From positions 62,001 through 126,000 of the forward strand of contig BGOU01000003.1 in the NCBI GenBank assembly GCA_003569705.1: a stretch of DNA of 64,000 bases. The letters run 5' to 3'. Below the pieces are notes generated by a model. It had not been told where the DNA came from, searched no databases, and worked only from the letters and a program-made list of their open reading frames with translations. Both the position numbers and the translations under genes were made by a program. Below, piece after piece: positions 10,786 to 16,153 of this stretch. Source of the DNA: Nitrosarchaeum sp. (lineage in GTDB: Archaea > Thermoproteota > Nitrososphaeria > Nitrososphaerales > Nitrosopumilaceae). Each line of letters begins with the position of its first letter. Within the stretch, counting starts at the first letter, position 1.

Positions 10786-13455
10786 CTATCCAGAAGTACA
10801 ACCGCTGAATCCACATTCTATGCAAATGGTACAGCCTTCTACAAATACAAGATTGTTTTTGCATGTTGGACATAGACGATCTTCAGACACTTCTTCTTGT
10901 CTCATAGGTTCAGATGTAATTTCTTCATCATGAACTTTGAGTTCAAGTGCATTATGTACTTGTGATCTGATGTATGGGTTTGAAATCATAGTTGTTACAT
11001 ATTTAGTAACATATTCACTTGGTGTAACCTCAAATGTTTTTTGTGCATTTTCACTTGTCATATGAAGTACTTGTTTATGTCTAGAACCATCACGATATAC
11101 TGTAGTTCCTTTTAGTCCCAATTCATGAGCCAATAGATATGAAGATTTTACATCATCTACGGTAACATCATAAGGCATGTTAATTGTCTTGGCAATCGCA
11201 TTTCCTATCCAATCTTGCCATACACCTTGAGCCATCAGATGATCTGCCCAATGAATATCCATTGCAGTGACAAAGACATCTTGCATCCATTGTGGGATTT
11301 CAGGAATTCCTTTTAGAGATCCATAGTTATCTGCAATCTTTACAAGTAGTTCATCGCTGTATAGACCATGTTCTTTGAGTACTTCTTCAACAATTTTGTT
11401 GGTATAGAAGAATCTACCCACAGTTACTCTCTTTTCAAATACTAGAGCAAATGCTGGTTCCATTCCGTTTGAGCAATCAGCAATCATAGATAGTGTTCCT
11501 GTTGGAGCTACTGTGGTAGTCAAGACATTTCTTATTCCATGTTTCTTAATTTTTTCAATTAGTGCATCCCATTCATAGCAATGTGATTCTTTTGGTTTCT
11601 CATAATATCCTGTAATTGGGATTTTTCCTTCTGGATATTCTGTCTTTGAGCAAAGTGGAAATTCGCCTCTAGATTTTGCAAGGGCTACACTTTCCTCCAT
11701 TGAATAATAAGTTAATGCTTCTGACAGTTTTGATTGTAATTCATATCCTTCTTTGGAGTTGTATGGAATTTTTAATTTGTACAAGAGATCTGCAACACCC
11801 ATTACACCTAATCCAATTCTTCTAGAATCCTTTGATGCAATGTCAATATCTTTTACAGGATAATTATTTACATCAATGATGTTATCCAAGAATCTTGTTG
11901 TCTTTCTGATTGTTTCTTCATATCTTTGCCAATCAAACTCATATTCTCCATCCATCTTTCTTTTTACAAGATTTACCAAGTTAATGGAACCAAGGTTACA
12001 TGATTCGTATGGATATAGACTCTGTTCACCGCATGGATTTGTAGCTCTTAGTGGAGCTTGTCTTGCTTTGGCAAATACATTGTATTTGTTAATATTATCA
12101 AAGAAGATTAATCCAGGCTCTGCACTCTTCCATGCAGACATAGCTATCAAATCAATTAATTGATGTGCACTAATTTCTTTCACTGGTTTTCTGTCACGTG
12201 GACTACGTAACATGTACTTGCCATCATCTGTGTTTACAAGTGCATTCCAAAAGTCTTCCCATATACCTACACTGACATTAAAGTTCTCCAATACACCAGG
12301 TTGTGTTTTATTTGTAATGAATTTTTCAACATCAGGATGCCAAGCTTCAATGATTCCCATGTTAGCTCCTCTTCTCTTTCCACCTTGTTTTACAACTTCA
12401 GTTACGGTATTGATGATATTCATAAAAGAAACAGGACCTGATGCTACACCAGATGTTGATGCAACAATATCGCCTTCTTCACGAAGATCAGAATAGTTGA
12501 TTCCAACTCCTCCTCCAGATTTGAAAATTAGTGCTGCATCTGAAGTTGTTTTCATGATTTGTTCCATGTCATCAGGCATACCAAGAACAAAACAGGCAGA
12601 AAGCTGACCCAATCTACCACCAGCATTCATCATTGTTGGTGAATTTGGTAGGAAATCTTGTGCAGTCATCAATTCAAAGTATTCTGTGATCTTGTCTGTA
12701 TAATCATCGAATTTTTTGGCTGCAAGTAGTGTTAGAAGATCTTTAAAGCTGACTTTCATTTGGCCTTTGTTTGCAAGTGTCACATAATGATTGATTAAAG
12801 ATCTAAAGTGCCATTTGTTGAGGAAGTATTCTCCAATCTTGAATTTGTAATCAAAATTGTCTAGTTTCTCAAGATATGTACGTGCCTCTTCAGTATTTTG
12901 GGTAATGTTTCCAGATTTATCAAATACTTGTGCATCATATAGAATATCACCTATTCCAACTAGAATTGCTACTCTTTCAAACATTTGAGTAGGAGATTCA
13001 ATAATTTCATTTTTATTATTTCTGAAAAGATACCTAGATGCCAATACTCTCAGGCAATTTAGATCAAAATTCTTTGAGACCGGATCTAAAGATTTTGTAT
13101 TTAAGACTTTCATTTTATCATCTCTTAATTTTCTTCGTTCATGTCTGTAAACGATGTACGCCTTTGCAATGTCGCTGTTACCACAATCGATAAGGGTTGA
13201 TTCCACGATATCCTGAATATCCTCAACGCTAGGAGATCGAGAACTTGTAAATCCTTGTTCGACTAATTTTTGCACGACTTTATTTGCAAGTTGATCGGCT
13301 AGTACACGGTCGGCTTTGGAGGTAGCTGCCAACGCTTTGAATATAGCGTTTGAAATTTTATCTTGATTGAAAACCGTTACAGCACCACTACGCTTACGGA
13401 TCTCATTGATTGTGCTTTCTATTTGTGATTTATCCAAATTATAATCTCCCCGCAA
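10786..13455 (-). CDS. nrdJ: Class II (adenosylcobalamin-dependent) ribonucleoside reductase
   Basis: An 889-residue ribonucleotide reductase making dNTP precursors with a cobalamin radical. An ATP-cone allosteric domain covers about residues 15-105. The ten-stranded barrel carries SACFVLG with the substrate-side Cys, the NPCGEQSLYPYESCNLGS catalytic segment (N-x-C-x-E), and PTGTLSMIADCSNG. The C-terminus ends in a zinc-ribbon/redox tail with CPTC, CTIC, CGFSGC. No small radical subunit gene is adjacent, as expected for class II. It is downstream of, and codirectional with, the degenerate NrdD-like regulator. Confidence 0.95.
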   Translation of the reverse strand: MRGDYNLDKSQIESTINEIRKRSGAVTVFNQDKISNAIFKALAATSKADRVLADQLANKVVQKLVEQGFTSSRSPSVEDIQDIVESTLIDCGNSDIAKAYIVYRHERRKLRDDKMKVLNTKSLDPVSKNFDLNCLRVLASRYLFRNNKNEIIESPTQMFERVAILVGIGDILYDAQVFDKSGNITQNTEEARTYLEKLDNFDYKFKIGEYFLNKWHFRSLINHYVTLANKGQMKVSFKDLLTLLAAKKFDDYTDKITEYFELMTAQDFLPNSPTMMNAGGRLGQLSACFVLGMPDDMEQIMKTTSDAALIFKSGGGVGINYSDLREEGDIVASTSGVASGPVSFMNIINTVTEVVKQGGKRRGANMGIIEAWHPDVEKFITNKTQPGVLENFNVSVGIWEDFWNALVNTDDGKYMLRSPRDRKPVKEISAHQLIDLIAMSAWKSAEPGLIFFDNINKYNVFAKARQAPLRATNPCGEQSLYPYESCNLGSINLVNLVKRKMDGEYEFDWQRYEETIRKTTRFLDNIIDVNNYPVKDIDIASKDSRRIGLGVMGVADLLYKLKIPYNSKEGYELQSKLSEALTYYSMEESVALAKSRGEFPLCSKTEYPEGKIPITGYYEKPKESHCYEWDALIEKIKKHGIRNVLTTTVAPTGTLSMIADCSNGMEPAFALVFEKRVTVGRFFYTNKIVEEVLKEHGLYSDELLVKIADNYGSLKGIPEIPQWMQDVFVTAMDIHWADHLMAQGVWQDWIGNAIAKTINMPYDVTVDDVKSSYLLAHELGLKGTTVYRDGSRHKQVLHMTSENAQKTFEVTPSEYVTKYVTTMISNPYIRSQVHNALELKVHDEEITSEPMRQEEVSEDRLCPTCKNNLVFVEGCTICIECGFSGCTSG

Positions 13456-13750
13456 GAGGTTAGAAAGAATACGGTATAAATGATTTGGCAGTATTTTCTG
13501 AAATTTCAGTTCAAAAATATTGACAACGGTCCAATTGATGTTGTAATGGTTTTTATGATCAAATAGTCACGAGTCTAGAACGATGATCGCTCGAGAAATT
13601 TTGATCGTGTACATTTCATGAGTAAATTTTTTAACACAACTATTATGAAAATCATACAGGCGTTACAATAATACGTGATAAAGATCATCTGACTGAAACT
13701 GATCAAAATATTTTCCAAAATGATCGGAACTAGTTTTTGATTTACGAATT
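13456..13750 (-). promoter_or_regulatory. nrdJ upstream region with repeated GATC motifs
   Basis: This 295-bp gap between the regulator-like gene and nrdJ has no convincing ORF. It contains several TGATC elements (near 13556, 13584, 13605, 13701 and 13721), including the opposed pair TGATCG / TTGATCGTG. GAAACTGATCAAAAT at 13695-13709 closely resembles the 19-nt repeat found upstream of the regulator gene. It probably contains the nrdJ promoter and operator sites; the exact promoter was not resolved. Confidence 0.45.
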
Positions 13751-15844
13751 TCAGATTACATATGAAGACTTGCACTTTGGACACTTGTCTACAAAGGGTT
13801 CATCTTTGAATCCACACTCACCACAAAGCGCTACTTTCTTTACAGGCTTGAATGAAGATGTTAGTTCTGCTGCTTTCTCAATTGATTTTTTGATATCAGC
13901 TTGAGTAGCATTCTGATCAATATCAAGTCTAACTAATAAACCACCATTGAGTAATTTAGATAGTTTGTTGCATTCAGATATAATCTCGGTTTTACTTGTA
14001 TAATCGCCTATTTCAGAGGCGTTAAGAACTATACCTTGTGAGTAAGAGTCACTATCCATAGAATTAAGAGCAGAATTTTTACCATATTTCTCACCATCTA
14101 GGTTTGCAAATCTACTAGATCCTTCGGTCTCAATCATGGATATAGCCACAGTATCGCCAAGTTCTTTGCCTTTTTTAGTTGCAACATCAACTGCGGTTTC
14201 TATTACTTTATTGAGTATGTCTCTTCCTTCCTTATTATCTTGGAATCCAAGAATATTGAAAACGGATTCCTTCAGGCCTACAAGATTAACAATCAGTGAC
14301 ACAGAACTTCTTTGCATGTATTGTGTATTCTTTGCAAGAATTGGATTTAGTCCTCTTCGTGTAAGATCAGAGATATCTTTCTTTCTTAACGCCATAGAAG
14401 ATAATGCGGGTTTCATAAGTAATGCAAGTCTTGCTCTAAAGTATGTTTCATCTTTATTGGATTCAAATGCAAGTCTTGGAAGATTGATTGAAACAGATTG
14501 TAGTGTTATTGCAAGTGGACCAGAATTTTTAGTTGTTCCATTTGTGATACCATAACTAGATACTTCACCTTTTGCAAACATCACTTTTCCACCAATTGAA
14601 ATTATTTCTGCTAATGCTTCGGAAACATCAGTAACTTTTCCTTTGTCGAAATCTACAATCAAACCAATTTTTGGAATTGGAGTTATTTTTGTGTAATTCT
14701 TGTATGCATTAATTATTGCATTAACAATTTTTAGATCAGAACCTAATTGAAGTCTAATTGAAACATTAGTGCTTTTTCTATTGTATTTTGATGTAGTAGA
14801 TGCAGTAGCAAATGCATCTGTTAGTTTTTGTTCAAGTTCTGGAATATTCTTTGAGTATTTTGTAAAGAGTGGAATCAATCCATCAAGTACAATTTCTTGC
14901 GAAGCTTCTTTGGAAAGTAATGATATGATTATAGACAATGAAGATGTAATATCATCAATTGATTTTGATGATGTAATTCTTGATACATCAAGATATTTTC
15001 CACCAAGAATAACTCCATCTTCAATCAATTCTTTTACATTAACAAATATTGTATCAGGTATCATCGACCAAATTCCTGGATTTGAAATATGCATGTCACC
15101 AGAAAGATGTGAATCAGCAACGTCTTTTGGTAATACATTGGTGAGTAAATGTTCTGCAAACACTTTCTGACCAGTATTGAAAAGTAGACCTTCTGCACCA
15201 TTATCTACATTATCCAGATTTGTGAGCATTTCTTGAACGTCATAAACAGGCAGACCCAGGCGTGCTAGTTTATTGCGATATTCCTCATGACCGTGTTCTA
15301 AAAGAACAGAATTTACCATTTCTCTGATAAGAGCCCCTGTAAGATAGGTTGTTTGATATTTGTAAATTCTATTTTCAACTTCTTCAGTAATTTTTTGAGC
15401 TAATTCTAATGGAAGACTACCTTCACGTACGAGTGATTGAATAATTTTATGGGAACTAAATTCTTCAATTGATTCATGTGATGTTCTAACATACATTTTT
15501 CCACTTTCAATGATTGATCGTTCCTCAATTTGTCTTGCCAAGCTCAATACAAGTTTTCCAAGATTTGTAATTGTATAACGCCTTTCAGATTTGTTTAGTG
15601 CTACAAGAGATTGTCTTAATAATTTTCTCAAGTGATATGCAAATTTACCACTCTCTTTTTTGGATTTGAATCCTGCTAATGATTTTAATTCGGAATAGGT
15701 TAATGGTCCCTTTGAATTTAAAATTCTCAAAATATCTATTCTGTTTGGACTCGCCATTACAGAAAAGATCATTCTTACACGTTTTGATGTAGATTGAAGA
15801 ATTCCGCTTCGCTTTGGCTCTTCTAGTTCTTCATCCAATTCCAT
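13751..15844 (-). CDS. HTH / ATP-cone / degenerate NrdD-like protein, putative RNR regulator
   Basis: A 697-residue multidomain protein. Residues 20-100 form an ArsR-like winged helix (ASPNRIDILRILNSKGPLTY). Residues 117-195 form an ATP-cone (MYVRTSHESIEEFSSHKI). Residues 205-660 resemble the anaerobic reductase NrdD, with HLSGDMHI at 246-253 and INLPRLA at 453-459. A zinc ribbon (C674, C677, C688, C691) ends the chain. Thr265 lies where NrdD has its first catalytic Cys, the only other Cys is C625, and the chain stops before the glycyl-radical motif. It is therefore unlikely to be an enzyme. With DNA-binding and nucleotide-sensing domains upstream of nrdJ, it probably senses dNTP pools and controls transcription. 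Confidence 0.75.
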   Translation of the reverse strand: MELDEELEEPKRSGILQSTSKRVRMIFSVMASPNRIDILRILNSKGPLTYSELKSLAGFKSKKESGKFAYHLRKLLRQSLVALNKSERRYTITNLGKLVLSLARQIEERSIIESGKMYVRTSHESIEEFSSHKIIQSLVREGSLPLELAQKITEEVENRIYKYQTTYLTGALIREMVNSVLLEHGHEEYRNKLARLGLPVYDVQEMLTNLDNVDNGAEGLLFNTGQKVFAEHLLTNVLPKDVADSHLSGDMHISNPGIWSMIPDTIFVNVKELIEDGVILGGKYLDVSRITSSKSIDDITSSLSIIISLLSKEASQEIVLDGLIPLFTKYSKNIPELEQKLTDAFATASTTSKYNRKSTNVSIRLQLGSDLKIVNAIINAYKNYTKITPIPKIGLIVDFDKGKVTDVSEALAEIISIGGKVMFAKGEVSSYGITNGTTKNSGPLAITLQSVSINLPRLAFESNKDETYFRARLALLMKPALSSMALRKKDISDLTRRGLNPILAKNTQYMQRSSVSLIVNLVGLKESVFNILGFQDNKEGRDILNKVIETAVDVATKKGKELGDTVAISMIETEGSSRFANLDGEKYGKNSALNSMDSDSYSQGIVLNASEIGDYTSKTEIISECNKLSKLLNGGLLVRLDIDQNATQADIKKSIEKAAELTSSFKPVKKVALCGECGFKDEPFVDKCPKCKSSYVI

Positions 15845-15898
15845 GTTATTTCACTAAAAAAGGAGTAAATAAGACTTATGACTGGATCGTTTTAGATC

Positions 15899-15917
15899 TT
15901 TTTAGATCAGTTTTCTT
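15899..15917. repeat. 19-nt GATC-centred direct repeat, copy A
   Basis: TTTTTAGATCAGTTTTCTT occurs here and again, identically, at 15984-16002. Copy A lies 55 bp upstream of the start of the HTH/NrdD-like gene (minus strand) and overlaps a second GATC (TTTTAGATCTTTTT). Position and similarity to a site upstream of nrdJ make it a candidate operator. Confidence 0.5.
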
Positions 15918-15983
15918 ATTCAAATAAAATTTAGATTTATTGTAACATTACAAATATACAAAAAAAATAAAAATTCATAAAGG

Positions 15984-16002
15984 TTTTTAGATCAGTTTTC
16001 TT
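15984..16002. repeat. 19-nt GATC-centred direct repeat, copy B
   Basis: This is an exact copy of the 19-nt sequence at 15899-15917, 85 bp away. Copy B overlaps the last three codons and stop of the zinc-ribbon peptide gene, so part of its conservation could be coding. The same core (GAAA-CTGATC-AAAA on the other strand) recurs upstream of nrdJ. Confidence 0.45.
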
Positions 16003-16153
16003 GTACATCCAGAGAAAATTCAGATGTTGACAACTTTTGTCCACATGATGGACACTTTCCATTGTATGGGTTCATTACATCTTTTAGAGCTTTTAGCATT
16101 TTCATGTTAGCGATCTTTTCTCCACATTTACCACATGTAATTTCTACAGACAT
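15992..16153 (-). CDS. Small zinc-ribbon protein
   Basis: A 53-residue ORF, MSVEITCGKCGEKIANM and onward, with CGKCG near residue 7 and CPSCG near residue 34: two knuckles spaced like a rubredoxin-type zinc ribbon. It lies upstream of and codirectional with the HTH/NrdD-like gene (147 bp apart). Small zinc-ribbon peptides are common in these archaea and mostly uncharacterised. Intact zinc knuckles in an otherwise short ORF support a real gene. Confidence 0.7.
   Translation of the reverse strand: MSVEITCGKCGEKIANMKMLKALKDVMNPYNGKCPSCGQKLSTSEFSLDVQEN

Follow-up and report, generated by a model that had tools for sequence, protein, structure and literature searches.

Several transcription regulators join a metabolic enzyme fold to a DNA-binding domain, among them BirA, NadR, PutA and the ROK repressors; none of these is known to derive from a ribonucleotide reductase (RNR), and we know of no regulator that does, nor did the literature searched reveal one. 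NrdR, a protein of about 150 amino acids, binds palindromic NrdR boxes via an N-terminal zinc ribbon (PMC9110341, PMC12176259); its nucleotide-binding residues are V48, K50, E56 and K62 in S. coelicolor numbering, and it is rare in archaea (PMC9110341). Transcriptional control of the archaeal dNTP supply is largely unknown. Here, we analyzed a 64-kb stretch of Nitrosarchaeum sp. DNA (the window) that encodes a pseudo-RNR, a candidate regulator proposed in an original prediction to be an anaerobic reductase (NrdD) without catalytic function that senses dNTPs and controls the neighboring class II RNR. No earlier description of this family was found in the literature searched, which was mostly non-subscription; elsewhere, a passing mention of archaeal HTH-ATP-cone-NrdD proteins is possible.

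The open reading frame is real: it extends from a start codon at 15844 to 13751 on the minus strand and encodes 697 amino acids, as confirmed by an ORF and translation check and further characterized by Pfam, an AF2 model and dN/dS. The original coordinates were correct, with the strand to be given as minus. Pfam and the ORF also bear out the domain content that had been read from the sequence, an ArsR-like winged helix-turn-helix (wHTH), an ATP-cone, an NrdD-like core and a zinc ribbon in a single 697-residue chain. All four lie on the minus strand. The wHTH spans residues 26-100 (15545..15769) and matches DUF7347 (PF24038, 2.6e-10, score 40.8 versus a cut-off of 27.6) and HTH_20 (PF12840, 6.1e-8, 32.9 versus 27). 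It is followed by the ATP-cone at residues 117-189 (15278..15496; PF03477, 6.2e-8) and by the inactive NrdD barrel at residues about 206-669 (13838..15229), within which HLSGDMHI begins at residue 246 and INLPRLA at 453; the NRDD model PF13597 matches in two stretches, the best covering residues 442-693 (8.5e-26). The zinc ribbon is formed by Cys674, Cys677, Cys688 and Cys691 (13772..13825), and the chain stops short of the glycyl-radical motif.

Structure prediction and comparison agree with the proposed NrdD fold. Built from the window protein, 13 genuine NrdDs and 75 relatives from Bathyarchaeia, the AF2 model has a mean pLDDT of 84.7 and a pTM of 0.75, with low confidence confined to residues 1-14, 432-441 and 594-596. 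Its 36 best fold matches in the PDB are, every one, class III RNRs, with E-values from 8.7e-21 and TM scores of 0.50-0.58 on the query and 0.53-0.66 on the target. Barrels of glycyl-radical enzymes and class I RNRs come next, and NrdR and SmtB after those.

Class III chemistry has been lost throughout the family. Aligning 134 regulators with 13 genuine NrdDs shows the thiyl-radical cysteine (Cys1) in 13/13 NrdDs and 0/134 regulators, a contrast beyond chance; in the window protein, its position is taken by Thr265 (codon 15050..15052, minus strand). A conserved Cys pair (C393/C394 in the L044 protein) is likewise found in 13/13 NrdDs and 0/134 regulators, and the four ribbon cysteines are retained in 117/134 regulators. 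The glycyl-radical Gly occurs in all NrdDs reaching that column and is missing from nearly all regulators; four regulators have a Gly there but lack the Cys. Residues and alignment thus agree with the original account of a Thr at the first Cys position, five cysteines in total (625, 674, 677, 688 and 691, all but Cys625 in the ribbon) and a chain ending at the ribbon. Neither catalytic motif was found in any of 80 named Bathyarchaeia-type members, and orthologues retaining both catalytic cysteines and the glycyl motif, the finding that would speak against a regulator, were seen neither among these 80 nor among the 134 relatives. Bathyarchaeia members retain the tail at the C-terminus but with the glycyl motif overwritten (FSRVSAKHLPAPF versus WSRVTGYYQAVSGWN, for example), which by sequence looks like an intermediate stage. 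NCBIfam NrdD equivalogs gave exclusively weak matches, far under cut-off (TIGR02487, 81 versus 326 bits). The premise that NrdD requires two catalytic cysteines needs correcting for the second one, as Thermotoga NrdD structures have no suitably placed Cys (PMC4390871). Since this residue is not universal in class III enzymes, the loss of Cys1 and of the glycyl motif are the stronger criteria. With Thr265 at Cys1, the Cys pair gone and the glycyl motif absent, the protein cannot be a working class III RNR; as judged from its residues and predicted fold, it belongs to this class by fold and not by chemistry.

Its domains invite comparison with three described systems. Like NrdD, the regulator has an ATP-cone, a barrel fold and a C-terminal zinc ribbon, but an N-terminal wHTH has been added, and Cys1, the Cys pair and the glycyl-radical motif have been lost. 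ArsR/SmtB-type regulators share the wHTH fold and lack the RNR-derived sensor; the curated subfamily model NF033788 scores 23.5 bits against a cut-off of 55. With NrdR it shares a zinc ribbon and an ATP-cone as the putative sensor of nucleotides and, probably, control of RNR genes and autoregulation. In contrast to NrdR, DNA binding is predicted to reside in the wHTH, the ribbon is C-terminal and a whole dead NrdD barrel is retained. ATP-cone residues V119, R120, E127, F129 and K133, among them the equivalents of NrdR V48, E56, F58 and K62 (PMC9110341), are kept in 108-128 of 134 relatives. The position of NrdR K50 is T121 here and mostly Thr among the 134 members, so that nucleotide binding may differ from that of NrdR. 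The NrdR model TIGR00244 is not among the matches listed for the regulator, nor does NrdR appear among those listed for its own genome or the genomes of the window's family. No match to the NrdR box consensus, with up to three mismatches, occurs in the 64-kb window. By analogy, the regulator would work like NrdR, yet it fails NrdR membership by model, architecture and boxes, in keeping with the original notion of an NrdR analogue of different architecture. Across the phylum, NrdR is above cut-off in 7/151 genomes, all in one family. In a genome of this family (G112), an nrdR match and an NrdD match lie ~1.3 kb apart on one strand (C33:7956-8381 and 9671 onward), and the pseudo-RNR is located on another contig.

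Of 151 genomes sampled across the phylum, 111 contain relatives, a number that includes some genuine NrdDs; within the class, the figure is 186 of 200 genomes (166/170 good ones). The genomes searched are species representatives, many of them incomplete and not independent of one another, and counts across them are descriptive, not probabilities. A named scan returned 580 relatives, the best 80 of which are nearly all labeled Bathyarchaeota or Bathyarchaeia; viral contigs contained none, and carriage by viruses was therefore rejected. In a set of 54 diverse members, the wHTH model PF24038 matches 53, the ATP-cone model 51 and NRDD 50. The tree separates regulators cleanly from NrdD with a support of only 0.18, and a single origin of the regulators is for this reason not demonstrated. 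The dN/dS ratio is 0.03-0.06 overall and lowest in the wHTH (0.000-0.015), the ATP-cone (0.000-0.036) and the ribbon, with 0.04-0.08 in the barrel. Purifying selection is strongest on the wHTH and ATP-cone, on which DNA binding and nucleotide sensing would depend. The regulator is a core gene of ammonia-oxidizing archaea and their class, and one that automatic annotation easily misreads as an anaerobic reductase. One family of the class has only ORFs of 470-490 residues that start like a wHTH and ATP-cone and give hardly any NrdD signal (L128:4977-6386, minus strand; L129:1701-3143, plus strand), possibly a further reduced form. Homologues with a single in-frame stop, reflecting frameshift, assembly error or loss, occur in two genomes (G217:C1:1756579-1758075 and G295:C20:34-2031).

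As originally described, the next gene downstream is nrdJ, codirectional on the minus strand (10786..13455) across a 295-bp gap. Its product is a class II RNR of 889 amino acids that carries an ATP-cone of its own; no other RNR barrel was found in the genome, where the regulator is likewise the only NRDD protein. Synteny with nrdJ, whose conservation had been put forward as a check, is nearly absolute in the window's family and order. nrdJ lies directly downstream and codirectional in 46/48 loci with usable flanks in the family, both exceptions belonging to one genus, and in 19/20 loci of sister families of the order; it is directly downstream in 14 further loci of a large family that we take to be Nitrososphaeraceae-like. 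Yet another family of the class has nrdJ next to the regulator in convergent orientation (L114, L115 and L117). Two NrdJ frames adjoining the regulator are long, with 1046 and 1149 residues (L100:2807-5947 and L103:2262-5711). In some of these families, NrdJ is only 32-39% identical to that of the window over part of its length, and the regulator 39-44% over its full length; the link between the two genes thus outlasts divergence or replacement of the enzyme. In Bathyarchaeia, the RNR within reach is nrdD in 13/13 loci, codirectional and 189-899 bp downstream of the regulator; all 13 of these enzymes keep the glycyl motif and 12/13 match the Cys1 pattern used. Among 121 loci without an adjacent RNR gene, the commonest neighbor is pyrB (64 loci; pyrI in five more), next door, downstream and convergent in 56 of the 64 and divergent upstream, in a different arrangement, in six; these pyrB/pyrI loci include L035, L036, L038, L039, L055, L056, L058, L141 and Bathyarchaeia loci. 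Regulation of class II RNR, as first proposed, suits the window's lineage and is too narrow for a family that adjoins nrdD in some Bathyarchaeia and pyrB elsewhere. In about 19 loci, a nascent-polypeptide-associated complex gene is convergent with the regulator homologue. Just upstream of the regulator, in the window (15992-16153, minus strand) and in most genomes of the family, sits a gene whose 53-residue product contains two CxxC pairs (MSVEITCGKCGEK...CPSCGQKL...).

Both intergenic regions flanking the regulator, exactly those named in the original prediction as regions for DNA-binding assays, contain arrays of the word GATC. Six GATC words lie between regulator and nrdJ (13557..13725), a candidate nrdJ operator, and an array upstream of the regulator (15885..15993, with words at 15885, 15895, 15905 and 15990) is a candidate autoregulatory operator; the stop codon of the 53-residue CxxC protein falls within a GATC word of the latter. 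Of all 150-bp windows in the 64 kb, the one richest in GATC lies in the regulator-nrdJ gap, and the second richest upstream of the regulator. Together, the two regions hold 12 GATC in 674 bp, versus 2.8 per kb in the window's other intergenic DNA. Across 43 genomes of the family, GATC reaches 14.75 per kb in the nrdJ gap and 13.55 per kb over the 400 bp that precede the regulator. Relative to base composition, it is enriched 5.1 times at the nrdJ promoter and 9.6 times at the regulator promoter, with a background of 1.03. Spacings in these 43 genomes peak at 10-13, 18-22 and 39-41 bp. The window has only two GATC-N6-GATC sites, an overlapping pair at 15885-15908, a number not improbable in itself. 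In a 400-kb sample from another genus, the single densest 200-bp GATC window is again upstream of the regulator. Strong arrays are confined to the window's own family. In Nitrososphaeraceae-like genomes, AGCT rather than GATC is weakly enriched (3.0-fold in the nrdJ gap, 4.8-fold at the mcm promoter; L093-L099, L107 and L304-L344), although the recognition helix is conserved. A search for a shared motif in that family was discarded, as AGCT words came out on top but weak.

A search of the window's own genome for GATC triplets pointed at an array of seven GATC between the divergent genes rfcS and GINS-mcm (L156; G000:C2 90380-90500); no denser GATC cluster was seen in this genome. Summed over 30 genomes of the family (L264-L293), the 150 bp of this promoter contain 178 GATC against an expectation of 19, a 9-fold excess over flanking DNA; at least three GATC are present in 26/30 genomes, and in the 26 loci with a clean start the count is 13.7 times the composition expectation. 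Positions are nearly fixed at about -81, -73, -47, -43, -28 and -9, even where GINS is <50% identical. The architecture of the arrays varies among the regulator, nrdJ and GINS-MCM/RFC promoters. We rejected a genome-wide triple-GATC pattern as a regulon finder: it matched 38 times per strand versus 28 for the control, with 7 of the 38 forward matches in the three promoters, and is not specific alone. Other intergenic GATC triplets of the genome (L153, L159 and L160) include one upstream of a phosphoglucomutase-type gene and one at the start of a 133-residue protein of unknown function.

All checks put forward in the original prediction that lend themselves to computation turned out in its favor. 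We consider it likely that the protein is a nucleotide-sensing transcription regulator of RNR that controls its own gene and perhaps also replication genes. On this model, a class III RNR stripped of its chemistry would have become a one-component regulator with a wHTH that recognizes operators containing GATC, in front of both its own gene and nrdJ. The ATP-cone, probably together with the retained NrdD fold, would read ATP/dATP or the wider dNTP state, and the ligand would act on DNA binding by altering the oligomer, whether dimeric or larger. Plentiful dNTPs would turn the cell's only RNR down and scarce dNTPs release it; repression by dATP would follow the logic of NrdR, from which the sign of regulation is taken. 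Architecture, loss of catalytic residues, constraint, synteny and the shared GATC arrays are computational findings, and from these we infer DNA binding and nucleotide sensing.

Two other accounts of the protein deserve next to no credence. A working but unconventional enzyme would explain the retained NrdD fold, and we rejected it because the thiyl-radical Cys and the Cys pair are absent from 134 relatives and the glycyl-radical motif is lost; the genome moreover has a complete nrdJ. A decaying nrdD pseudogene would fit a barrel that is degenerate and, in several families, shortened, but distribution and dN/dS reject it, with the gene found in nearly all good genomes of the class and under purifying selection. 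Control at the protein level, in which the dead subunit pairs with or blocks NrdJ and the wHTH is structural, draws on the RNR fold, the ATP-cone and the nearly constant proximity to the enzyme gene. We regard it as improbable, as the regulator stays beside RNRs of different classes and subtypes, its wHTH evolves slowest and operator-like arrays exist.

The remaining alternatives concern what the regulator senses and what binds GATC. A general regulator of nucleotide biosynthesis, responding to purine/pyrimidine or NTP state and serving pyrBI or RNR by lineage, overlaps with the reading preferred here; the frequency of pyrB and pyrI at loci without an RNR neighbor speaks for it, and the pyrB link makes it possible that the regulon, if not the ligand itself, extends beyond dNTPs. 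However, nrdJ and not pyrB adjoins the regulator in the window's family and order, and most pyrB cases are convergent and may represent inherited gene order, which leaves this account possible but rather doubtful. Comparably doubtful is the idea that the arrays serve a different factor, be it a regulator of the cell cycle or of replication or a system linked to methylation, with the pseudo-RNR gene as one target. The strongest array is indeed at GINS-MCM/RFC, far from the regulator gene, and the position pattern varies among promoters; on the other side, an autoregulated local regulator usually shows just this arrangement, with arrays concentrated at its own promoter and at a conserved neighbor. 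It is this autoregulatory placement that suggests the regulator itself, not another factor, as the GATC-binding protein.

If a nucleotide-sensing regulator of RNR is the right description, the GATC element shared with GINS-MCM/RFC indicates that its control may reach replication genes, and the same type of operator there suggests that dNTP supply and replication would be tuned together. More tentatively, and with the balance of our judgment against rather than for it, we envisage RNR-descended transcription factors throughout the Thermoproteota and, in ammonia-oxidizing archaea, an S-phase-like regulon in which a protein reading dNTPs with its dead reductase body acts via GATC arrays on its own gene, the only RNR and the replicative helicase and clamp loader. 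The GATC arrays offer a testable link between control of RNR and of replication genes in these organisms. If true, the family would represent a second, independent solution to the task of NrdR, in which the enzyme itself has become the sensor governing its successor.
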